Of a stretch of DNA of 64,000 nucleotides, positions 1,489-34,764 are shown one piece after another (within the stretch, counting starts at the first letter, position 1; each line of letters starts with the position of its first letter). The notes under the pieces were generated by a model. It saw only the letters and a program-made list of their open reading frames with translations. It was not told the DNA's origin and did no database searches. The DNA is taken from NCBI RefSeq assembly GCF_000325665.1, contig NC_019908.1:806001-870000 (forward strand), written 5' to 3'. The DNA comes from Brachyspira pilosicoli P43/6/78. Its GTDB lineage: Bacteria; Spirochaetota; Brachyspiria; Brachyspirales; Brachyspiraceae. The position numbers and the translations under genes were made by a program.

Positions 1489-2652
1489 TTAAGCCTTTTT
1501 TAAATCTGTTTCTCTGGGCAGATGATTTATAATATCATTCATTTTTTGAGATAAATCTTTCCACTCATCAAGCATATTTTTTATTGATTCAGCTTCAGCA
1601 CTTTTTATATTTTTATCTGAATTAGCACAGTCTTGTTTCGTACTATTTTGCTTTTCTCTATCTTTGGCAAATGGATGATTTTGCATAGCCTCTTTTATTA
1701 TGCTAGCCATAACATAAATATATCTTGATACTGTTGTATTAATATTTTGATGCCCAAGCATTTTTGATATTACATAAATGTCTGTTCCGCTTTCTGCCAT
1801 ATCAGTTGCAAAGCCTCTTCGTAGAGAATGACAGGTAACTTTTATATTTGTCTTTTTAGAGATGATATCCATTATTGTGCTTATAGTATTTATATTCAAA
1901 GGCTCACTATTTTTTTTAATGAATAACATGTTATGCTTTTTATTTTTACGATTTAATCTTTCTTCTCTTAATTTTAAGTATTCAATTAATTTAGATTTTA
2001 TTGAATCAGAAAAAGAAATAATTCTCGGTTTATCCCCTTTCGTTTTATAAATAGTTATGGTATTATTATTCATATTGATGTTTGTTATGTCTATGCAGGC
2101 AAGCTCTTTTCTGCGAATGCCTGTATTAGACATAAGCAAAAGCATAAAGATATTTCTTTGATCTAAAAAAAATAGATTTGGTGATTTTGATTTTTCGGCT
2201 ATTGCTTTTGTGATAGATAAAGTTTTATCGGCTTTTATTAAGAGTTGTTTTTTTACAATTATCTTTGGAGTTTTAAGCTCATCAAAAATATCAAAAAAAG
2301 TTTCTGTACTTATTTTTTTTAACTTAAGTAAATATTTAAAATAATTTTTGACTGCCATTATCATGCAGTGAATAAAATCAGCACTTACTTTTTTATTAAC
2401 TTGATAAGCTATATAGTCTTCAATGCATTTTCTATCTACTTTATTATACAGTACTGTAGTATAGTATGATTGAGTATTTTCAGATTGTCGGTTGTCATAA
2501 TAAAAAAATAAAAAATCATAAAATCTTTTTAGACAACTTGAATAAATCTGTATAGTTGCTTTTGATTTATATAGTTTAGAATATTCAAGATATTGAATAA
2601 TTAAATTAGAATTATTATTATCATATAGTTTTAGACATTCTATTGTTTTCAT
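1489..2652 (-). CDS. Phage-type tyrosine recombinase (integrase)
   Basis: About 387 residues. The C-terminal catalytic domain shows the full set: Arg in NTGIRRKEL (about R180), a beta-hairpin Lys (YKTKGDKPR), HSLRR (about H275 and R278), LGH (H301) and the nucleophile Tyr in VSRYIYV (about Y311). The N-terminal 130 residues form a SAM-like core-binding domain. The longest frame starts at a TTG (2709), but the ATG at 2652 has GGAG 8 bases upstream and is preferred. It lies at the left edge of the prophage beside the 23-bp repeats, so it is the likely prophage integrase. A charged tail of about 60 residues follows the catalytic Tyr. Confidence 0.9.
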   Translation of the reverse strand: MKTIECLKLYDNNNSNLIIQYLEYSKLYKSKATIQIYSSCLKRFYDFLFFYYDNRQSENTQSYYTTVLYNKVDRKCIEDYIAYQVNKKVSADFIHCMIMAVKNYFKYLLKLKKISTETFFDIFDELKTPKIIVKKQLLIKADKTLSITKAIAEKSKSPNLFFLDQRNIFMLLLMSNTGIRRKELACIDITNINMNNNTITIYKTKGDKPRIISFSDSIKSKLIEYLKLREERLNRKNKKHNMLFIKKNSEPLNINTISTIMDIISKKTNIKVTCHSLRRGFATDMAESGTDIYVISKMLGHQNINTTVSRYIYVMASIIKEAMQNHPFAKDREKQNSTKQDCANSDKNIKSAEAESIKNMLDEWKDLSQKMNDIINHLPRETDLKKA

Positions 2653-3303
2653 AAAAATAGCTCCATTTTTTATTAGGCATATACATGCCTTAATTAAAAA
2701 GTTTGGCAACGTTTTTTTATAATAAAAACAGAGCTATTTTAATTTGTGTATATATTATCGGTTTATTTATTTTTAATAATAATTGACAAGTTAAATATTT
2801 ATTATATTATTATTTTTATAATAATTTCTATTTCTTTCTCATATCTATTTTTATGTTTTGTTGCAATACTTAGTTGCAGCAAAACATAAAAAATATTTTT
2901 AAATAAAAAAGGTTTTATTAATAAGAGTAGTTTGTTAGATTATAAAAAATTATTGAGATTATAGGAGAGCTAATAGCAGAAGCTTTTTAAGTTGCTGCTA
3001 TTAGCTTGCTAAAGAAAAAATATTAAAAAAGGAATAATGAATAATAATGAACAAAGATATTAGTATGCGATGAATATAAGCTTTTATGGAGGTGACAGCA
3101 GAAGCTCTTAAAAAACTTCCGCTGCCCTAGCAAATGAGAAATACCATATTAGAAGTTGCTGTGTAAAAACTAAAGGTTGAGATCATACTAATATATTAAT
3201 ATATGTTAAATATAAGTTTTTATTATTATTATATTAATAATGTTATAAATCAAAAAGTTTTTTATTTTTAAAGAATCATTTACAAATTAAAAAGTGTTAT
3301 AAA
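2653..3303. other. Gene-free stretch of 650 bp with strong inverted repeats
   Basis: No supported gene, but the stretch is dense in secondary structure. A 13-bp hairpin at 2854-2886 has one G-T pair and a 7-base loop. A perfect 12-bp hairpin pairs 2968-2979 with 2995-3006. An 11-bp inverted repeat (ATATTAGTATG at 3057-3067 with its complement at 3184-3194) encloses an inner stem CAGCAGAAG with CTTCCGCTG (about 3096-3124). The two inner hairpins share AGCAGAAGCT followed by TTAA. It lies between the leftward late operon and the integrase. It may hold a small RNA or terminators; strand and function are unknown. Confidence 0.45.
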
Positions 3304-24035: not shown

Positions 24036-25808
24036 ATGTATAGCTATGAAGAATATATTAATAAAGTTATAAATAAAGAATTGCCTGTATGTCAGGCTGC
24101 TTTTTTAGCAGTAAAAAGACATTTAGATGATATAGAAAAATCAAAAAACAATGATTATCCTTTTTATTTTGATGAAAATGAAGCTAAACGTCCTATTACT
24201 TTTATTCAATCTTTAGTTCACACAAAAGGAGAATGGGCAAATCATAATATTATACTTGAATCTTGGGAACAATTTATTATAGCAAGTATATTTGGATGGA
24301 GAAGAAAAGAAAATAAACTTAGACGTTACAAAAAAGCATACGTTCAGGTAAGCAGAAAAAATGGAAAAACTACTTTTGCATCTGGTATTGGTAATTATTG
24401 CTTTTTTTGTGATAGTCCTGCAGAGGCTGGTGTTGAAATATATTATATAGCCACTAAAAAGGATCAAGCTAAAATTGCATGGAGTGAAAGCGAAAGACAA
24501 ATAAGAAAAGCAAAAGCTCTCAATAAAGAAGCGATTACATATAAACAAACTTCTACAATTACAAAGAAAAAAGATACTGCCTCAAAATCAAAACCACTGG
24601 GACAGGACAGTAATACTGAAGATGGTTTAAATCCGCATTTAGTTATAGTAGATGAATATCATGCTCACCCAGATAATGAACTTCTAAATGTTCTTGAATC
24701 TGGAATGGGAGCTAGAAGACAGCCTCTCACTTTTATTATTACAACTGCTGGATTTGATAAAACTTCTGTTTGTTTTTCTGAATATGAATACGCTAAACAA
24801 ATATTACAAGGTTCTCTAAATAATGATGAATACTTTTGCATAATATATGAACCTGATAATATAAAAGATATTTGGATATTCATGAGTGAGTATAAAGAAA
24901 AATTAAACAATAATCAAAATACTCAAGAACAAGAAGAACTTATTAATAATATTATTTTCCAAGCTAATCCTAATATTAATATTTCTGTAAAGGATAGTTA
25001 TTTAAAATCTAGGTTATTTGAAGGATTAGATAAACCTGTACAGAGAACAGATATACTTACAAAAAACTTAAATGTTTGGACTCAAGCTAGTGAAGTATGG
25101 ATTTCTTCTGACAGATGGCTTAAGTCCTATTTACATCAAAATATAAATATAAATGAATTAAAAGGAAAGAGAGCTTGTATTGGATTAGATTTAGCAACTA
25201 CAAGAGATATAGCCGCTTATGTTTTATGTTTTGACACGATTGATAATGATCCATATATACTTTTGCCTCGCTTTTTTATGCCTAAAGAAAATATAAGGCA
25301 ACGTTCTAAAGAGGACAGAGTGCCTTATGAATTATGGGCTTCGCAAGGTTTAATTACTTTAACAAATGGTGATATTATAGATTTTGATATTATAGAATCT
25401 TCAATATTACAAGATGCTAAAGATTTTGAAATTATAGAGATAGCTTATGATCCCTGGAAAGCTATTGAAATAATAACTCACTTAGAAAATGAAGGCTTCA
25501 AAATGCAGCAAGTTAGGCAGTCTTTTGCAGTCGGAGGTTTGTCTGAAGGTACTTCTTTATTTGAAAAAACAATAGATGAACGCAAACTTCTACATGGTAA
25601 TAATCCTGTTCTTAATTGGATGATAAGCTGTTGTGAAGTTAAAACAGACGGAAGAGATAATTATTTGCCTGTTAAACCTGATAGGCGAAGATCATATAAA
25701 AGAATTGATGGTGTTGTAGCTTCTATTATGGCTCTTCATAGAGTTATTAAAAATCACTTTGAAGATACAAAAAGTATTTATGAATCTGAAGGTGTATTTA
25801 GCTTATAA
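24036..25808 (+). CDS. Terminase large subunit
   Basis: 590 residues. The ATPase domain has Walker A VSRKNGKTTF (about 105-114) and Walker B LVIVDEYHAH (about 202-211, D206 and E207). The nuclease domain starts near CIGLDLATTRDIAAYVL (about 378-395), with further acidic residues in EIAYDPWKAIE. It pumps DNA into the prohead and cuts it. It lies 5 bases after the small subunit and ends at a strong hairpin. Confidence 0.93.
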   Translation: MYSYEEYINKVINKELPVCQAAFLAVKRHLDDIEKSKNNDYPFYFDENEAKRPITFIQSLVHTKGEWANHNIILESWEQFIIASIFGWRRKENKLRRYKKAYVQVSRKNGKTTFASGIGNYCFFCDSPAEAGVEIYYIATKKDQAKIAWSESERQIRKAKALNKEAITYKQTSTITKKKDTASKSKPLGQDSNTEDGLNPHLVIVDEYHAHPDNELLNVLESGMGARRQPLTFIITTAGFDKTSVCFSEYEYAKQILQGSLNNDEYFCIIYEPDNIKDIWIFMSEYKEKLNNNQNTQEQEELINNIIFQANPNINISVKDSYLKSRLFEGLDKPVQRTDILTKNLNVWTQASEVWISSDRWLKSYLHQNININELKGKRACIGLDLATTRDIAAYVLCFDTIDNDPYILLPRFFMPKENIRQRSKEDRVPYELWASQGLITLTNGDIIDFDIIESSILQDAKDFEIIEIAYDPWKAIEIITHLENEGFKMQQVRQSFAVGGLSEGTSLFEKTIDERKLLHGNNPVLNWMISCCEVKTDGRDNYLPVKPDRRRSYKRIDGVVASIMALHRVIKNHFEDTKSIYESEGVFSL

Positions 25809-27092: not shown

Positions 27093-27160
27093 TTACCTCT
27101 TCTTAATTATTTATGTGATGACAATAACTCTGTTGCGAAAGATAGCAAGTTCTTTTCCTC
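27093..27160 (-). promoter_or_regulatory. Conserved leader element, copy B
   Basis: Best preserved copy. On the gene strand it contains TTGCTATCTTTCGCAACAG (an interrupted TTGC/GCAA inverted repeat), AGTTATTGTCATCACATAAA and the ribosome site AGAGGTAA. TTGCAACAG-like and CATAAAT blocks are about 17 bases apart, so a promoter with operator is likely. Confidence 0.6.
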
Positions 27161-27410: not shown

Positions 27411-27467
27411 TACCTCTTTTAATTATTTATATGATGACAATAACTCTGTTGCAAAAGATAGCAACTC
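27411..27467 (-). promoter_or_regulatory. Conserved leader element, copy C
   Basis: Third copy of the leader, with ATATGATGACAATAACTCTG (plus strand) intact and the TTGC/GCAA pair preserved as GTTGCAAAAGATAGCAAC. It diverges upstream of 27467, which defines the outer border of the element. Confidence 0.6.
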
Positions 27468-27489
27468 ATTATCATATAAAAAAATAATG

Positions 27490-27577: not shown

Positions 27578-27847
27578 ATGGATTCAAGGAATAGTGTATC
27601 AATTAATTTTAATCAGGATTTATATCGATGGATTGTAAAAATGGTAAAAAATAGCAAAGCAGATCCATTTAACTATTCAAATGCCACATTTGGAGGTTTT
27701 GTGCAGGCTTGTGTTGCAAAAGCTAAAAAAGAATACGAAGAGAAAGGAAGTGAAATGCAGAAATTAAAAAAAAGAGTTGTAGAATTAGAAATAAAGTACA
27801 AAAAAATTGAAGAATTAGAAAATAAAATTAAAGAGTTAGAAAAATAA
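27578..27847 (+). CDS. Small DNA-binding-like protein with C-terminal coiled coil
   Basis: 89 residues. The N-terminal half (SVSINFNQDLYRWIVKMVKN, then ATFGGFVQACVAKAKKEYEE) resembles a ribbon-helix-helix layout: a beta strand followed by two helices. The C-terminal 35 residues are a heptad coiled coil (LKKRVVELEIKYKKIEELEN). AAGGAG lies 5 bases before the ATG. It is divergent from the leader-bearing small genes, with a palindrome between. A regulator role is an inference. Confidence 0.5.
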   Translation: MDSRNSVSINFNQDLYRWIVKMVKNSKADPFNYSNATFGGFVQACVAKAKKEYEEKGSEMQKLKKRVVELEIKYKKIEELENKIKELEK

Positions 27848-27854
27848 TTTCATA

Positions 27855-27881
27855 CCCCCTAATAAAAAAATTATCGCCACA
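27855..27881. other. Degenerate dif-like site at the left edge of the defence island
   Basis: Right arm TTATCGCCACA (27871-27881) differs in one base from the TTATCGCAACA arm at 32064 and 33815. The left arm ends in CTAATAA but is otherwise unlike, and the spacer would be 5 rather than 6. It starts 7 bases after the stop of the 27578 gene. Supported only as a partial match. Confidence 0.35.
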
Positions 27882-28028
27882 TATAAAAGACTCCCCACTC
27901 GTTGCACAACTTAAAAGCTTGTAGAGATTTTACCCACCCCCTAGCCATTAAAACATATAAAGAATCCATATTACTAATATAAAAAATTATCAATTTAATT
28001 TGAATTGCATTATATTCAAAATAACATC

Positions 28029-28056
28029 TGTTGCGATAATTTGTCTTATTGAAATA
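28029..28056. other. dif-like 11-6-11 site 1
   Basis: Left arm TGTTGCGATAA (28029-28039), 6-base spacer TTTGTC, right arm TTATTGAAATA (28046-28056). The left arm equals the exact complement of the right arms of sites 3 and 4. The right arm keeps the TTAT start typical of Xer sites but has diverged. The site abuts the stop codon of the Abi-alpha gene. Confidence 0.55.
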
Positions 28057-28806
28057 TTATTTTTTTAGTATACTTTCAAAATAATTTTTAATATCTATTA
28101 TCTCAAGTAATTCTTTACATTTATCATTATAACAAACTTTTATAAAATATTCACCAAATGAAGTAAGTTTTAGTCTATCATGTACAATATAATTATATTC
28201 ATTAATACAAACATCTAATTTAGGCATATTTATAGTGCTATCTTCAAAATAAATTAAATTTAAAGATTTTAATCTATCAAAAATATATGAATAATTTAAA
28301 TTTGCATTATTTTTATATATAATTTTTCGATTATTTTTATTAATGATATCTATTTGATTTATTCTATAATCATCCAAGCAGTAAGCATCGTATATTCTAT
28401 ATATTTCATAATTATTTGATACATCTAACAATCCTCTTGCTTCTTGAGAAGACATTTGTTTTAGGATTTGTGTAAATGCTGGATGTACTAAATTTGATGT
28501 ATTTTTATCCATAGAGGATTTTAAAAGATTGTAAAACATTTCATGTAAAGGTGTTTCCTTTTCATTTAATAATATACCTTCCATACTTGGTATTAATATA
28601 TTTCTTTCTGGTTCTACAATTTCTTTATCTTTTAAATCTTTTGATAATCTATTATTTAAATATTCAAAAAAATTATCTCTATCTTTAATAAATGATTTTA
28701 TCTTATCTAAAAAAGTACAAGCAATATAAGCACCTGCACCTTCTATAGCCCCATCTCTAAAAGAAGAAATCATGTCATTTATAATTCTAATTAAATCATT
28801 ATTCAT
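28057..28806 (-). CDS. Abortive infection Abi-alpha-like protein (DUF4393)
   Basis: 249 residues. The pattern of EGAGAYIACTFLDKIKSFIK, PERNILIPSMEGILLNEKET, PLHEMFYNLLKSSMD and LVHPAFTQILKQMSSQEARG is that of the Abi-alpha/DUF4393 family, linked with abortive phage infection. The C-terminal part has a winged-helix feel (LTSFGEYFIKVCYNDKCKEL). It is a single-gene cassette between a dif-like site (28029) and a half-site (28819) in a prophage defence island. The family is recognised by pattern; activity is not shown. Confidence 0.7.
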   Translation of the reverse strand: MNNDLIRIINDMISSFRDGAIEGAGAYIACTFLDKIKSFIKDRDNFFEYLNNRLSKDLKDKEIVEPERNILIPSMEGILLNEKETPLHEMFYNLLKSSMDKNTSNLVHPAFTQILKQMSSQEARGLLDVSNNYEIYRIYDAYCLDDYRINQIDIINKNNRKIIYKNNANLNYSYIFDRLKSLNLIYFEDSTINMPKLDVCINEYNYIVHDRLKLTSFGEYFIKVCYNDKCKELLEIIDIKNYFESILKK

Positions 28807-28818
28807 TTTTTATTTACC

Positions 28819-28829
28819 TGTTACGATTA
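28819..28829. other. Half-site resembling the dif-like arm
   Basis: TGTTACGATTA matches the left arm of site 3 (TGTTACGATAA) except for one base, but no TTAT arm follows at 6 bases. It lies between the Abi-alpha start and the end of the 28936 gene, the next expected cassette boundary. Confidence 0.35.
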
Positions 28830-28935
28830 ATAATATAAATTACTTATATTATTTATGAACTTTATTCATAAATATATTTTTATTTAATAAAGTGGACTTT
28901 TTCAAATAAATGTTATATCAAATAAAATAATATTA

Positions 28936-29934
28936 CTAATCAATATTAATATAACTATATAACTTATGAGTTTCTTTTCTATTAAATAATTTTTTATTTT
29001 TACATGTTAATTCTAAAAATAGTTTATTTGGCATAATAGTATTAAAGCCCAATTCTAATAATTTTACATAGTCTGAATAAATGATATTAATAGGTATTTC
29101 TTCTGTATTATAAAAATTATCATAATATTCTTCCATTAATTCTTGTAAACTATTAACTTTTTTTAACGATTCATTAACTAATTTTACTCCTTCTTCTTGT
29201 AATAGTTCTGATTTACTTAAAGTAATTAAAAATGTCCTTAGTTGATTAGCAAAATTGTGTTCATATAATTGATTTTCTAAAAATCTTTTTCCAGCTGAAA
29301 GATAATTTATCATATAAGAGAAAGCATCTAATAAAGGATATGAACTATTAGCAATTAATAAATCAAATCCTAATTTTTTATATAATTCAGGTAAGATATT
29401 TTTATAAACTAGAACAGATTCAGTGCATATAGTTTTTATTCTTTCATTTATATTAAAAGTATCATACTCTTTGAATTGTGGATATCTATAAACTATAATA
29501 TTAGTTTTATCATAGGTAGAAACTATTTTTCCATAGTCAATTTCTTTAATGTCAAGTATATTACTAGAACCTAATAGTTTTTCTATATCTTTTATTCTAT
29601 TTTGATATATAATTTCACATAATTTTTTGTTATCTAATACTTGTAAATACCTGCAAACATAATCACTATACTTACTGAAATCAGGTTTGTCTGATGTTAT
29701 TTTTATATACATAGTTCCCTTTTTATCAAAAACACTCATTACTGTTTCTTTATTTAAATTTTTTAATTGTAATTTTACATCAGGATTACTATCATTTTGC
29801 TCCTTTATTAACTCTAAATTGCAATCTATTTTATATTTATTTAATGATGACACGACTGATACTATAGCCCCTATAACTGATACTATAGCTCCTATAATCG
29901 ATACTATAATTGATATTATTTGGCTTAAATTCAT
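28936..29934 (-). CDS. Membrane-anchored protein of the defence island
   Basis: 332 residues. One N-terminal hydrophobic segment (about 5-30, IISIIVSIIGAIVSVIGAIV, with a short internal repeat IGAIVSV) is followed by a cytoplasmic mixed alpha/beta domain of about 300 residues without known motifs. It is transcribed with the GHKL/Shedu-like gene upstream (33-base gap), so the two may form a two-gene defence unit with a membrane-linked part. I do not recognise the family. Confidence 0.55.
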   Translation of the reverse strand: MNLSQIISIIVSIIGAIVSVIGAIVSVVSSLNKYKIDCNLELIKEQNDSNPDVKLQLKNLNKETVMSVFDKKGTMYIKITSDKPDFSKYSDYVCRYLQVLDNKKLCEIIYQNRIKDIEKLLGSSNILDIKEIDYGKIVSTYDKTNIIVYRYPQFKEYDTFNINERIKTICTESVLVYKNILPELYKKLGFDLLIANSSYPLLDAFSYMINYLSAGKRFLENQLYEHNFANQLRTFLITLSKSELLQEEGVKLVNESLKKVNSLQELMEEYYDNFYNTEEIPINIIYSDYVKLLELGFNTIMPNKLFLELTCKNKKLFNRKETHKLYSYINID

Positions 29935-29967
29935 TTTTATTTTCCTTTTAATATTATTATATAAATA

Positions 29968-31983
29968 TCACTTTTTTAGATTCATTTTAGATTCTATTTT
30001 TTTTATATTTATATCTGGATAATTATTTTTTATATATTCTAGAGCATTCATATCCTTAGTTTTTAAATATGAACCTAAATAAGACAATTTTTGTTTATTT
30101 TCACTTATTATATCTGACCATCTTAGAATATAAACATTTAAATCACAACTATTTGAAGTTTCTAATAAACCAGTTTTAGGATCTGCTAATTTGCTTTCTG
30201 CAAATTCCGATATATAACTGCTTATTAAAATTAATTTATATGAGTAATTTATTTTTGATAATGCTTGCTCTTTTTCAATAGCAAATTTATATTCAGAAAT
30301 TTGATTTATTTCTTTTCTATCTATTTCTTTAGAAAATCTTTTTAGCTCTATTACTAATATTTCTTTTTTTTGAGCACTTCCTTTATCTATTTCTGTCCAT
30401 ACAAATAAATCCATTCTATCTTTATTTTCTTTTATTGTAGACAAATCAGCATCATCTCCAAAAACACTTTTTCTTAATCTTTCAAATGTTTTAGATATAG
30501 TTTTATCAGATTGTACTATTTTAGTACCATTATATTCAGAACCAAATATCCATAAATTATTTTCTATTAGTTTATGTAAGTGGTCTCTTTCATTTATATA
30601 TTCATTATAATCTTTATTATATGCTAATTCAGAAAGGTTTTCTATAAATAATTGTTTTGAAGCTACTTCATTTGCAAATGGTACTATATATTCTAAATCT
30701 GCCTTATCTAATAAAGATTTTAATTCATCAACTTGGGGTTTTGGTAAATCTCCTAGTTTATCCAATATAATTGCTATATTTCCATCTGCTATACATTTAT
30801 TAACTAAAGGATATATAATATTTTTTAGTTTATTTTGTTTCTCTAATAGTTTAAATTTTTTTTCTATACAATAACAAAATCTTATATAAACCATTTCTTC
30901 AGATTCTGATGGAGTATTTTTTTTATAAGGATATGTATTATCTTTTTTCAAATTAGTTTCAAAATCATAATAATCTTTATATTCTTTGTAGAAAAAGTCA
31001 TCCAAATGTTTTTTTATTTCATCTTTTAAATGAGTAAGATTTTCATCTATATTATTAATATCTATATTTCTAAATGCATCTTTTTCTTTATTAAACATAT
31101 CTGAATATATGTATATTACCCAAGAAGATACATTTGGAGTTGATAAATGATATTCGTAAGATGCTGCTATACTTTTTATATTATCATTATCAACTAATAA
31201 TGATACAATTTTATTATTATTATTTTTTGTATCTTTATATTCAATAGCTTCATAATTAAAATTATATTTATTTCCATCCAATGAAATAAATTCTTTATCA
31301 AATTTTTGAGATGATATCTTATATTTATTAGGATCTAATTCTTTATTATTTATAATAAATGATACTTTTTTATCTATTATATAGAGGTAATAATGTATAA
31401 ATATGTTTTCCCAAATATTATTTTTAGCTTTTTCTTCTGTTGAAAGTTTTTCGCTAATTTTATATTGTTTTTTGTCTTTATAATCTGCATCATTTGAATA
31501 ACCATCTTCTATTGTTACTTGGAAATAAGATTCTGAATTAATACCAATATTTTCATATTGTACATTTATATCAAGGTGTTCAAAAGTAAGATCTTTTATA
31601 TTTTCTAAAGATAGGACAAAACTTGATTTTATAAAAGCATTTTCTTTCATATCATATGCAACAGTTTCAAAAGTTACAATTTTTCCAAGCTGAAATGAAG
31701 AAAATCTACCAACACCTCTACCTGTTATTTTGCTATTATTTGCCATTTCCAAAAGTTTTTTATTTAAATCTGATTTTGATACACCAACTCCATTGTCTTT
31801 TATAATGATCTTATTTATGGAGTTTTCTATAAATTCATCCTTATCATTCACACTAGTATCAATAGTTATTTCTATTTTAGATGCAGATGCTTGTATAGAA
31901 TTATTAATTAATTCACATAATGCTAAAAATGTATCTTTATTCGTTGCTAGAGTATTTTGTATTATTCTAGCATTGACTTTCAT
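29968..31983 (-). CDS. GHKL ATPase fused to a Shedu-like PD-(D/E)xK nuclease
   Basis: 671 residues. The N-terminal 330 residues are a GHKL (HSP90/MutL-type) ATPase: N-box ELINNS (about 24-29), G1 box IKDNGVG (61-67) and G2 box GRGVGRFSS (88-96). The C-terminal domain has NLWIFG (476-481), D525 in DRMDLFVWTE, E546-x-K548 in VIELKR and Q561 in EINQISEY. This is the order of the Shedu (DUF4263) nuclease core. Shedu proteins are anti-phage nucleases with varied N-terminal sensors. Here ATP-driven opening of the GHKL clamp could control cutting; that is inference. A 16-codon leader ORF overlaps the start. Confidence 0.75.
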   Translation of the reverse strand: MKVNARIIQNTLATNKDTFLALCELINNSIQASASKIEITIDTSVNDKDEFIENSINKIIIKDNGVGVSKSDLNKKLLEMANNSKITGRGVGRFSSFQLGKIVTFETVAYDMKENAFIKSSFVLSLENIKDLTFEHLDINVQYENIGINSESYFQVTIEDGYSNDADYKDKKQYKISEKLSTEEKAKNNIWENIFIHYYLYIIDKKVSFIINNKELDPNKYKISSQKFDKEFISLDGNKYNFNYEAIEYKDTKNNNNKIVSLLVDNDNIKSIAASYEYHLSTPNVSSWVIYIYSDMFNKEKDAFRNIDINNIDENLTHLKDEIKKHLDDFFYKEYKDYYDFETNLKKDNTYPYKKNTPSESEEMVYIRFCYCIEKKFKLLEKQNKLKNIIYPLVNKCIADGNIAIILDKLGDLPKPQVDELKSLLDKADLEYIVPFANEVASKQLFIENLSELAYNKDYNEYINERDHLHKLIENNLWIFGSEYNGTKIVQSDKTISKTFERLRKSVFGDDADLSTIKENKDRMDLFVWTEIDKGSAQKKEILVIELKRFSKEIDRKEINQISEYKFAIEKEQALSKINYSYKLILISSYISEFAESKLADPKTGLLETSNSCDLNVYILRWSDIISENKQKLSYLGSYLKTKDMNALEYIKNNYPDINIKKIESKMNLKK

Positions 31984-32017
31984 TTACTTCAATATTGTTT
32001 CTAGATGATACACTCAT
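31967..32017 (-). CDS. 16-residue leader ORF overlapping the GHKL/Shedu start
   Basis: ATG at 32017 with AGGAAT upstream opens MSVSSRNNIEVNESQC and stops at 31967, overlapping the start of the nuclease gene at 31983 by 17 bases. The nuclease gene's own ribosome site is weak. Translational coupling through this leader is plausible; a chance ORF cannot be excluded. Confidence 0.3.
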   Translation of the reverse strand: MSVSSRNNIEVNESQC

Positions 32018-32046
32018 ATTTATTCCTATAATTTTAATAATTTTTA

Positions 32047-32074
32047 TGTTACGATAACCTTTATTATCGCAACA
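32047..32074. other. dif-like 11-6-11 site 3
   Basis: Left arm TGTTACGATAA (32047-32057), spacer CCTTTA, right arm TTATCGCAACA (32064-32074). The arms are inverted repeats with one mismatch. The right arm supplies the last codons and stop (Val-Leu-Arg-stop) of the RHH gene, so the site marks the 3' end of that cassette. Confidence 0.65.
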
Positions 32075-32303
32075 CCCTATTTATATTTTCTAATGCACAT
32101 TTCCTCACATATTGCCCTATACTCATTCCTTCTTCTTTGGCTATTTCTTTAAGCATTTCATTTTCTTCTTCATTTAATCTAAATGATATTCTATAACTAG
32201 TCTTTTTATCCCTATCATCTTTCTTTTTTCTGCCAGCACCTTCACGAGCACCACCTGTATTTGGTCTAGCTCCACCCCTATTATTTTTTTTTATTATTTC
32301 CAT
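32064..32303 (-). CDS. Ribbon-helix-helix (CopG/MobC-like) protein
   Basis: 79 residues. A Gly/Arg/Lys-rich N-terminus (GGARPNTGGAREGAGRKKK) precedes an RHH domain: beta strand SYRISFRLNEEEN, then helices EMLKEIAKEEGMSIGQYVRK and CALENINRVL. Such proteins bind DNA as dimers and often repress their own or neighbouring genes. It is divergent from the promoter of the DUF3800 unit, 95 bases away. AGGA lies 7 bases before the ATG. Its stop codon is inside a dif-like site. Confidence 0.75.
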   Translation of the reverse strand: MEIIKKNNRGGARPNTGGAREGAGRKKKDDRDKKTSYRISFRLNEEENEMLKEIAKEEGMSIGQYVRKCALENINRVLR

Positions 32304-32397
32304 TATTTATTCCTATTATTTAATTTTACTATAATAATTACCAAACATATAATTATTATTATACTTAAAATTATATCAATAATTTGAAAGTTTATAC

Positions 32398-32425
32398 TTG
32401 ACACTCAATATATATGCTATATAAT
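32398..32425 (+). promoter_or_regulatory. Consensus sigma-70 promoter of the DUF3800 unit
   Basis: Perfect -35 TTGACA (32398-32403), 16-bp spacer and perfect -10 TATAAT (32420-32425). It is the strongest promoter in the window. It lies 258 bases before the DUF3800 start, leaving a long structured leader. Confidence 0.8.
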
Positions 32426-32431
32426 AACCAT

Positions 32432-32610
32432 ATAAGAAGTGAAGGTTGAGTGTTTCCACCCAATCACTTTGGCTAGTTATAAATTAGACTATTTGATCTG
32501 CTTTATAACCACAACTAAAGTTATAATCACCGTAGTAAGTTATATAACCTTAGTAACCAAAGTAATCATTTTATCCATTCGGTTTTCCTTACTTTTCTTA
32601 TTGGAATTAA
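32432..32610 (+). ncRNA. Candidate structured leader RNA upstream of DUF3800 gene
   Basis: From the promoter at 32398 a leader of about 250 nt runs to the DUF3800 gene with no convincing ORF. It folds readily. Hairpin 1: AAGTGA (32437-32442) with TCACTT (32464-32469), continued by TTGAGTG with CACCCAA around a TTTC loop. A closing helix ACTTTGG (32466-32472) with CCAAAGT (32557-32563) would exclude the base of hairpin 1. Inside it lie TTATAAC with GTTATAA (32503-32526) and the palindrome GTTATATAAC (32539-32548). RNA motifs upstream of DUF3800 genes have been described in general (DUF3800 RNA motif series); I cannot say whether this is one of them. Confidence 0.55.
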
Positions 32611-32682
32611 TTATAATATTTGATGAAAAAATGTCAACAATTTTTCTACAAAAATAATATATTATTTATAAAGGATTTACTA

Positions 32683-33783
32683 ATGTTAAAAGAAACTGTA
32701 TTCAATTTATATATAGATGAAAGTGGGAATACTGGTGCTAATATGATTGATAATGAACAAAAATTTTTTACATATGGAGCTTGGTTAATACAAAAATCTA
32801 TAGAAAATAGATCAATAAAAAATTTATCAAATAAATATTATTATTTATTTGATAAAAATAATGTTGAAATAAAAGCTACAAAGTATTTTTATAAAGATAA
32901 ATATTATAAAAAGTATAAAGAATTATTTAATGATATCTTAAAAGAAAAAATGTACCCATTTGTGTTATTATTGGAAAAAAAATATATCATAAGCTGTTTT
33001 ATAGTTGAAGTGTTTTTTAAAACAAAAAATATTATTAATCCCATTGAATATAAAGAATTGCAAGAATTTAAAACAGCTATTAGTAATATTATACATAATA
33101 ATATTACATTTTATAATTCCAATATTTTTAATGAATTTTGGTCAAAAAATTATAATAGTAAATATACAAATCAACAAATATTATATAATACTAAACAAGA
33201 AATATCAAAAATTTTAGATTCTAATAACTTAAATTATTTATCTAATTATCTTGATAATATTAATACTAATATTAATATTGATGAACTAAAAGCAGAAGAA
33301 TTTTTTGCTGGTCTTTTATCAAAACTATTAACCCATATAATTGTTTATATAAACTATGTCAATAATTACAATAATTATAAGATAAACTATAAAATAAATG
33401 TTTTTCATGACAACCTTGATGGATTTAAATATATAAAAAAAGTTATAAAAAAATCTAACATTGAAAGTATGTTAGAAAATAATATTAATTTTCCATTAAA
33501 TACAATAGATTCAAAAAATAATAAAATAATTCAATTAGCCGATTTATTAGCAGGTTTTTTTAGAATCTTGTTAAATGAAAAAAACATTAACAAATATGCA
33601 AAACAAATAATAAACCAATATTTTATAGATACATTTGGTGTATTGAAAGGGAATAGCGTTATATATTTATCATATGATACTGAATATAAATTTTTATCTA
33701 ATATTAGTAAAAATGGATTTCCAAAAATAGATATTGATAATAAAAAATTAATACAATATTTTAATAAATATATTGAACATTAA
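32683..33783 (+). CDS. DUF3800 protein
   Basis: 366 residues from the ATG at 32683, which has AAGGA 7 bases upstream; the longer frame from 32620 lacks a ribosome site. Signature motifs: YIDESGNTG at 10-18 (D12, E13) and QLADLLAGFF near 284-293 (D287). These belong to the RNase H-like DUF3800 family, frequent in phage and defence islands. The middle is Asn/Ile/Lys-rich. Transcribed from a consensus promoter through a structured leader, divergent from an RHH gene. The biochemical activity of the family is not established. Confidence 0.8.
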   Translation: MLKETVFNLYIDESGNTGANMIDNEQKFFTYGAWLIQKSIENRSIKNLSNKYYYLFDKNNVEIKATKYFYKDKYYKKYKELFNDILKEKMYPFVLLLEKKYIISCFIVEVFFKTKNIINPIEYKELQEFKTAISNIIHNNITFYNSNIFNEFWSKNYNSKYTNQQILYNTKQEISKILDSNNLNYLSNYLDNINTNINIDELKAEEFFAGLLSKLLTHIIVYINYVNNYNNYKINYKINVFHDNLDGFKYIKKVIKKSNIESMLENNINFPLNTIDSKNNKIIQLADLLAGFFRILLNEKNINKYAKQIINQYFIDTFGVLKGNSVIYLSYDTEYKFLSNISKNGFPKIDIDNKKLIQYFNKYIEH

Positions 33784-33797
33784 TTATATTTTATAAG

Positions 33798-33825
33798 TGT
33801 TGTGATAACAGTAATTATCGCAACA
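33798..33825. other. dif-like 11-6-11 site 4, next to the recombinase gene
   Basis: Left arm TGTTGTGATAA, spacer CAGTAA, right arm TTATCGCAACA. With flanking AAG and CTT the inverted repeat extends to 14 bp per arm (33795-33828), with a single mismatch. It lies between the convergent DUF3800 gene and the tyrosine recombinase gene, 9 bases from the latter's stop codon. It could also work as a hairpin terminator, but no T-run follows on either strand. Confidence 0.65.
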
Positions 33826-33834
33826 CTTAAAATA

Positions 33835-34764
33835 TTATTCTACTTCCAAACTTCTTAAGTATAGTCCTGTTATAGCTATATTACTATGGTTTAATGCTTT
33901 TCTAATAAGTTCTATGTCTCTGGTTTTTTTATATAAAGTAACAGCAAAATAATGTCTTATATCATGTATAGAGTAAGAGGCTTTTATTTTACCTTGTTCA
34001 TATAAACGCTTTGAACTCCTATAAAAAACATTTCTTATTACTTCAGAGCTTTTATTTTTGAAAGGAGCATTAAAAGCGAGATTATACTTTTTTAATTCTT
34101 TTATAACCTTGTCAGTAACTTTCCAACTTATCTCTTTTCCTTTTGAATAGGAATAATATTTATTGTTTCTTATTTCAAGTTTAGGTAAAGCACCAACACG
34201 CACACCGCATTCCATTATAAAAATGATGGCCATCTTTATCAAAGGGTCAGATATATCTTTAATTATTAATTCAATTTCTTTTTTAGTTGGAACTTCAAGT
34301 CTTTTTTTATTTTTAACAGGAGGACGAGCTTTTGTACCACGAAAAGGATTTTTAATAAATGGATATCTTCTCTCTAAAAATGAGAAGAAAGAAGAACAAG
34401 AAGAAACTAAGGCACGTATACTTAAATTAGAAAGTTCACTTGAATTGACTTCTATTATAAAGTCATCAGCTTCTCTGGCTTTAATAAATAAAATATTTTT
34501 ATTATTTATACGGCAATATTCTTCTAGCTTATTGAGCCCATTTTTATATTGTCTTTTTGTATGATTGCTTTTTGTCTTTGAGCATTGCTTAAAAAAGTTT
34601 TCTTTTTCTGTTTCATAATCTATCTGCTTAATAAGCTGCTCTTCTTTCATATAGTCAAGTATATTTAAATAATTAGCTTGCTTAATAAGAAGTTCTGCTT
34701 GCTCTTCAGTTATTATATTATTATTATTTTGTGATATTAGTTGATTCTTATTTTTAGAAGCCAT
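33835..34764 (-). CDS. Second tyrosine recombinase, beside the defence cassettes
   Basis: 309 residues. Catalytic residues: R189 (CGVRVG), a Lys in YYSYSKGKE (about 208-210), H267 and R270 (HDIRH), H293 (LNHS) and nucleophile Y302 (GLYLRS). A core-binding N-terminal domain spans about 55-150. It differs clearly from the 1489-2652 integrase. Its gene ends 9 bases from dif-like site 4. A role in moving the neighbouring cassettes is the attractive reading; it may instead be the prophage integrase or act in early phage DNA processing. Confidence 0.88.
   Translation of the reverse strand: MASKNKNQLISQNNNNIITEEQAELLIKQANYLNILDYMKEEQLIKQIDYETEKENFFKQCSKTKSNHTKRQYKNGLNKLEEYCRINNKNILFIKAREADDFIIEVNSSELSNLSIRALVSSCSSFFSFLERRYPFIKNPFRGTKARPPVKNKKRLEVPTKKEIELIIKDISDPLIKMAIIFIMECGVRVGALPKLEIRNNKYYSYSKGKEISWKVTDKVIKELKKYNLAFNAPFKNKSSEVIRNVFYRSSKRLYEQGKIKASYSIHDIRHYFAVTLYKKTRDIELIRKALNHSNIAITGLYLRSLEVE

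Follow-up and report, generated by a model that had tools for sequence, protein, structure and literature searches.

A candidate pdif-like cassette-exchange locus for defence genes in Brachyspira prophages

The locus described here, an array of predicted defence genes bounded by dif-like sites beside a tyrosine recombinase gene, lies in a prophage of Brachyspira pilosicoli P43/6/78, within a 64,000-nucleotide stretch (contig NC_019908.1, positions 806,001 to 870,000, forward strand) that is called the window throughout. Its closest described parallel is the pdif module of Acinetobacter Rep_3 plasmids, in which 28-bp sites, each composed of two 11-bp arms and a 6-bp spacer (11-6-11), form inversely oriented boundaries and carry varied spacers, with inversions and swaps between sites of equal or near-equal spacers (PMC13141974, PMC6449649); one spacer mismatch is tolerated by Acinetobacter dif modules (PMC13141974). 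The Brachyspira array shares with pdif modules the 28-bp 11-6-11 format, facing boundary sites, varied spacers and accessory cargo (toxin-antitoxin and other genes in pdif). However, pdif modules have distinct XerC and XerD arms, use host XerC/D and reside on plasmids, whereas the Brachyspira locus has a single type of arm in inverted repeat, a recombinase of its own, a prophage location and mainly antiphage cargo. We consider it likely, with a probability of roughly 0.7, that the locus, which lies midway along a temperate phage, serves for the exchange of defence-gene cassettes and is phage-encoded, pdif-like and of Cre or XerH type.

Cre/lox of phage P1 is a second parallel, and heterospecific lox sites are used for laboratory cassette exchange. 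Likenesses are the phage-encoded tyrosine recombinase (Cre is among the structural matches of the Brachyspira enzyme), the palindromic arms and a spacer that would confer orientation and specificity; the differences lie in site dimensions (11-6-11 against 13-8-13 for lox), in the presence of several natural spacers, or centres, in one population, and in the use of the sites to bound swappable cargo. Integrons, reported in phages too (PMC9892861), likewise have a recombinase adjoining an array of genes exchangeable at specific sites, but the Brachyspira sites are short and palindromic, unlike attC, and its cassettes have a boundary site at either end, the two in opposing orientation; this site form and orientation do not fit attC sites or one-way cassettes, no dedicated attC scan having been made. 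P2-like phages and P4-like satellites have defence hotspots (PMC9122126) that are also prophage loci with variable antiphage cargo; the Brachyspira boundaries differ from these in being marked by a dedicated recombinase and recombination sites. The available portion of PMC3532143 describes phages pP1-pP3 and pM1-pM3, related phages of B. pilosicoli strains and three of B. murdochii, which are apparently of the same group as those studied here; in that portion the phage genes are largely hypothetical and the sites and cassettes are not described. No description of this cassette system was found in the open-licence literature, and because the search was limited to such papers priority cannot be claimed.

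Sites and cargo replacement in related prophages

The original prediction, made from the letters of the window, had placed three dif-like sites in the array, as follows.

28029-28056, reverse strand: left boundary site, TGTTGCGATAA-TTTGTC-TTATTGAAATA (centre GACAAA in canonical orientation)
32047-32074, forward strand: internal site, TGTTACGATAA-CCTTTA-TTATCGCAACA, directly 3' of the ribbon-helix-helix (RHH) gene unit in relatives
33798-33825, forward strand: recombinase-proximal site, TGTTGTGATAA-CAGTAA-TTATCGCAACA

All three were confirmed. The 28-bp consensus at up to three mismatches matches the window three times and none of 100 dinucleotide shuffles, and no other copy exists in the complete single-contig genome of 2,555,556 bp. 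Their proposed placement at the 3' ends of gene units is also correct: the left site adjoins the Abi_alpha stop (28057), the internal site supplies the stop codon of the RHH gene (32064), and the proximal site lies 3' of the DUF3800 gene and ends 9 bp ahead of the recombinase gene (33835). Two supposed partial copies, at 27855 and 28819, fell away, each being one arm-like word and neither standing at a cargo junction; such single words at up to two mismatches number 33 against 21 expected, the 27855 word being a conserved piece of backbone and the 28819 word a conserved piece within the Abi cassette.

The same site type adjoins the same tyrosine recombinase in the related Brachyspira prophage loci that were compared, about 35 distinct ones (handles beginning with L for loci and G for genomes). 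In canonical orientation a site reads inner arm, centre, outer arm. The arms are palindromic, the second being an inverted copy of the first, and the boundary sites of a cargo block face each other. The outer arm, which points to the backbone, the recombinase or the RHH gene, reads TTATCGCAAC followed by A or T at nearly all sites, with about 2 bits of information per position across it; the inner arm, on the cargo side, differs by cargo with ATAA nearly always kept, and information is low at inner positions 1, 2 and 5. This asymmetry is real because the site scan demands one good arm, either one, without specifying which. The inner arm TTATTGAAATA of the left site is part of the Abi cassette. 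Among 26 genomes of the genus, sites occur in 19 and the recombinase or a fragment of it in 19; in G003 the sites are on a 4.5-kb contig that ends ahead of any recombinase, and G016 has a recombinase fragment only. The six genomes with neither recombinase nor fragment have no site, apart from the chance-level count seen in controls (0 or 1 per genome for the reversed pattern).

The genes between the left site and the recombinase of the window are the following.

28057..28806, reverse strand: Abi_alpha protein, 249 amino acids (aa), cassette gene (PF14337, 1.2e-28; PADLOC candidate PDC-S47, 7e-21)
28936..29934, reverse strand: cassette protein of 332 aa with no Pfam match; same cassette in L094 and L124
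29968..31983, reverse strand: GHKL ATPase with HSDR_N_2-like domain, 671 aa, cassette gene (PF13589, 3.2e-14; the PF13588 match, 8.7e-4, is under the curated cut-off); homologues in 6 arrays
32064..32303, reverse strand: RHH protein, 79 aa (PF16777 and others); 22 family members, in most arrays
32304..32670, reverse strand: conserved RHH leader (alignment A1, read by eye)
32683..33783, forward strand: DUF3800 protein, 366 aa, cargo (PF12686, 1.3e-10)

The expectation that gene content between the sites would change in related genomes while the sites stayed was borne out, site-bounded cargo being fully replaced on a retained backbone. For six groups of arrays with a common flank, mean identity is 94-99% over the outer 40 bp but 35-44% over the inner 40 bp, as for AT-rich sequences that are unrelated, and unrelated cargo starts at the inner arm. 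The backbones of the window, L121 and L123 are closely similar, yet each carries a different cargo, and L122 carries the RHH gene alone before its single site. L103, L108 and L082 are 98% identical across 7.2 kb up to the site, where three unrelated cargos begin (a type IIG-like set, an ABC-three-component (ABC-3C) plus Hachiman-like set, and a DUF488 pair). Cargo is also reused across backbones and orientations: the DUF488 cassettes of L092 and L082 lie in opposite orientations and match at 99.2% identity over 1.9 kb, in loci whose recombinase regions are 85% identical and whose left backbones differ, and a methylase-GmrSD cassette is found in both L102 and L110 with different flanks. The Abi-alpha/GHKL cassette of the window is inverted in L124 (92%) and L094 (94%), the L094 match stopping at the two sites; relative to L124, the block from the left site to the RHH gene is inverted and DUF3800 added. 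In sequence comparison, then, modules change with their boundaries at the sites, as in pdif modules. The unit structure goes beyond a simple cassette-site-cassette order because the RHH gene travels with the CCTTTA site.

The cargo is mostly known or predicted defence, with activities assigned by family membership, and this, together with its replacement at the sites, supports the proposal of a mobile defence array within a prophage. Its families include Abi_alpha, GHKL ATPases with a restriction-like domain, C5 methylase with GmrSD-like proteins, ABC-3C (DUF2326, CTD10), Hachiman-like helicase, IetAS, type IIG-like methylase, KAP NTPase, caspase-like proteins, DUF3800 and a helix-turn-helix/Gp49 toxin-antitoxin-like pair; many further cargo genes have no family. 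The RHH leader encodes in relatives two hydrophobic peptides (29-30 aa) separated by a hairpin; the window has a truncated version of the first peptide. The leader could be a membrane-peptide toxin or a regulatory leader. An Rfam scan of 26.5-36 kb gave no credible match.

Several genomes carry two or three such prophages. G010 has three related ones, at 1.52, 1.96 and 2.58 Mb (L104-L106), with the same array and the same sites. L112 (G018:C13) is a remnant in which the two prophage ends, the end integrase and the array of cassettes survive, most phage genes being lost and the cassette recombinase broken. The diverged phage L114 (G019; recombinase 78%) has IetAS-like cargo, a site about 5 kb from the recombinase, and an array whose orientation is reversed as a whole with respect to the terminase side.

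Mosaicism is common among phages, and the turnover might be attributed to homologous recombination in flanks that are indeed conserved, with the sites, which do lie at gene 3' ends, as passive boundary marks such as terminators. We regard this as quite unlikely, given that breakpoints fall repeatedly at the 28-bp sites, that cargo shifts between phages with unrelated left backbones, and that the rest of the genome has no copy of the motif. The last point also answers one objection anticipated with the original prediction, namely that the motif might be frequent genome-wide. The other, that it might be a transcription terminator, fails as well: none of 72 inner-arm changes is compensated in the outer arm, so that a hairpin is not the conserved feature, and an RNA hairpin or terminator was rejected on these two grounds.

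The unequal centres had been seen as the weak point of the prediction. They do differ, but systematically, and are the most informative feature of the system rather than a weakness. Five centres account for 56 of the 62 sites (CCTTTA 14, CAGTAA 14, CATAAA 13, CACAAA 10 and TATAAA 5), with six others making up the remainder. They are distributed by position: the recombinase-proximal site usually has CAGTAA or CATAAA, CCTTTA stands just 3' of the RHH gene, and most left backbone sites have CACAAA, from which the GACAAA of the window differs by one base. Flanking centres are unequal in every array. A phase-variable inversion switch for defence-gene expression, as opposed to an exchange device, would suit boundary sites that face each other and the Abi and DUF488 cassettes seen in both orientations, but it does not agree with these unequal boundary centres, nor with cargo that itself differs between relatives, and we judge it very unlikely. 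Least probable of all is a phage enzyme for dimer resolution or secondary integration beside whose site defence genes merely pile up; P1 Cre/lox offers a precedent and single-site arrays exist, yet one invariant site would be needed, and many arrays have two or three sites that bound cargo and vary in centre.

The cassette recombinase and its prophage setting

Two tyrosine recombinase genes are relevant to the locus.

33835..34764, reverse strand: cassette tyrosine recombinase, 309 aa (PF00589 and PF02899)
1489..2709, reverse strand: conventional phage integrase, 406 aa (PF00589, 1.9e-31), at the left end of the prophage

The 309-aa protein has the catalytic set R, K, H/R, H, Y of tyrosine recombinases (R189, K208, H267, R270, H293 and Y302), all kept in 29 of 29 relatives, and its dN/dS of ∼0.1 shows purifying selection. 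It is 94% identical to a recombinase in a Brachyspira pilosicoli record; no close recombinase was found among the isolated phages searched, and pattern matches to the sites in IMG/VR from outside the genus were set aside as resembling chance palindromes, the recombinase occurring there in relatives only. The nearest solved sequences are Xer-like, and a predicted model (mean pLDDT 77) has fold matches in the PDB to XerA, IntI4, Cre and XerH at modest TM scores. The integron integrase profile TIGR02249 gave 29 bits against a cut-off of 265. Since a separate end integrase is present, the 309-aa enzyme is a second tyrosine recombinase, distinct from the obvious phage integrase; in other genomes, end-integrase homologues are found ∼26-32 kb from arrays, and G010 has three of each. 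Nor is the placement of the sites that of attP at prophage ends, as they are in mid-prophage, between terminase and early genes.

The recombinase is separated from its site by ∼10 bp, or by ∼138 bp where a 42-aa RHH-like open reading frame (ORF) lies between. This ORF, which immediately follows the recombinase gene in roughly half of the phages (L092, L096, L104, L110, L118 and others) and is absent from the window, is possibly an accessory factor for recombination. The recombinases of L082, L130 and L131 carry in-frame insertions of 6-10 residues (e.g. PTGERSF, LRRSTCGE) and are otherwise near-identical; the insertions perhaps derive from small mobile repeats.

Whether the host enzymes could act on the sites was judged against host dif, TCTTCCGATAA-TGTATA-TTATGTTAACT, a single canonical site in the genome of the window with its core in 21 of 21 high-quality genomes. 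The original prediction had likened the phage sites to Xer/dif sites, and the 11-6-11 geometry bears this out; the arms do not, being inverted copies of each other and not the distinct XerC and XerD arms of host dif. In favour of host XerC/D, as for Acinetobacter plasmid pdif modules, are the identical geometry, the match of TGTTGCGATAA to the XerC-side arm at 9 of 11 bases, and two chromosomal Xer-like genes. The second phage arm, however, as an inverted copy of the first, matches the XerD-side arm at only 7-8 of 11 bases, and a dedicated intact recombinase lies ∼10-140 bp from the site in nearly all phages; we therefore consider action by the host enzymes in place of the phage enzyme unlikely. 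Because the phage site is symmetric and host dif is not, a single recombinase in the manner of Cre or XerH is more probable than XerC/D, and the symmetry of the arms favours an enzyme acting alone with direction given by the centre.

The prophage extends from the end integrase to ∼40.2 kb, where matches to related prophages end. A search for a direct att repeat gave none above 13 bp, and the att ends were not located. The array occupies the middle, with the terminase side on one flank and early genes on the other; its left backbone comprises the following.

24036..25808, forward strand: terminase large subunit (PF03354, PF20441), conserved backbone to the left of the array, with 86-99% identity in most relatives
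27578..27960, forward strand: left flank of the backbone, made up of a small coiled-coil ORF and the bases after it, conserved as far as the left site

Near-identical repeats with TGTTGCGAAAGATAGCAA at 27108-27145 and 27421-27470, upstream of two paralogous small ORFs, look operator-like and partially resemble the site arm. Tandem repeats of a ∼22-bp unit (ACTCCATTTTGTTGACT...) lie at ∼1303-1440, just outside the end integrase.

A model of cassette exchange

We suppose that the 309-aa recombinase drives the exchange, that the centres set the choice of partner and that defence is the selected benefit. The enzyme would probably bind both arms of the near-palindromic 28-bp site, as Cre does on lox, and join sites with matching or near-matching centres. 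With facing boundary sites and unequal centres, in-place excision or flipping of a block would be hindered. Were two such phages to meet in one cell, crossovers at two sites with matching counterparts would swap the entire block, and if the matching ends were swapped the block would be inverted.

Several points weigh against this account. Recombination at the sites is deduced from comparison of sequences. The absence of equal-centre pairs (0 observed against 1.0 expected, P = 0.31) is not significant alone. Recurrence of the Abi cassette altered the centre at one end from CAGTAA to GACAAA, and that of the DUF488 cassette from CAGTAA to CACAAA, so that exchange either is not strictly between identical centres or needs intermediates. 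The inversion between the window and L124 ends at the left site and in the RHH leader, the latter not a site. Fully degenerate sites escape a scan that needs one good arm, and around most distant homologues no paired sites turned up (no clear pair with the scans used at L148-L150 and L152-L158; L151 alone had them).

A broader form of the exchange reading can be put forward tentatively: at least five mutually distinct centres may be kept as addresses, by which defence blocks dock, swap or flip through the phage recombinase according to centre match, and the family might do likewise elsewhere in spirochaete phages with other sites. In G116, from another spirochaete family, a recombinase homologue of 41% identity lies near a terminase and is followed by two palindromic sites, AGAGGGTAG-N6-CTACCCTCT, the only two in that genome, with differing centres; the pair, obtained from a scan of that locus (0 of 60 shuffles yielded a pair), brackets a 90-aa ORF and adjoins type I restriction genes. 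The homologues at L149 (sister genus) and L152 (G064) also have type I restriction genes on their 3' side.

The movement of defence genes between phages as discrete units has mostly been put down to mosaicism or hotspots, with no named machine. Many related phages have a likely machine, its sites and its cargo together on a single short segment, which makes the question directly testable, and the small natural set of apparently orthogonal 6-bp centres would, if true, be a useful tool for DNA engineering. Since the blocks are mainly defence, a phage lineage could in this way re-arm while keeping its backbone.

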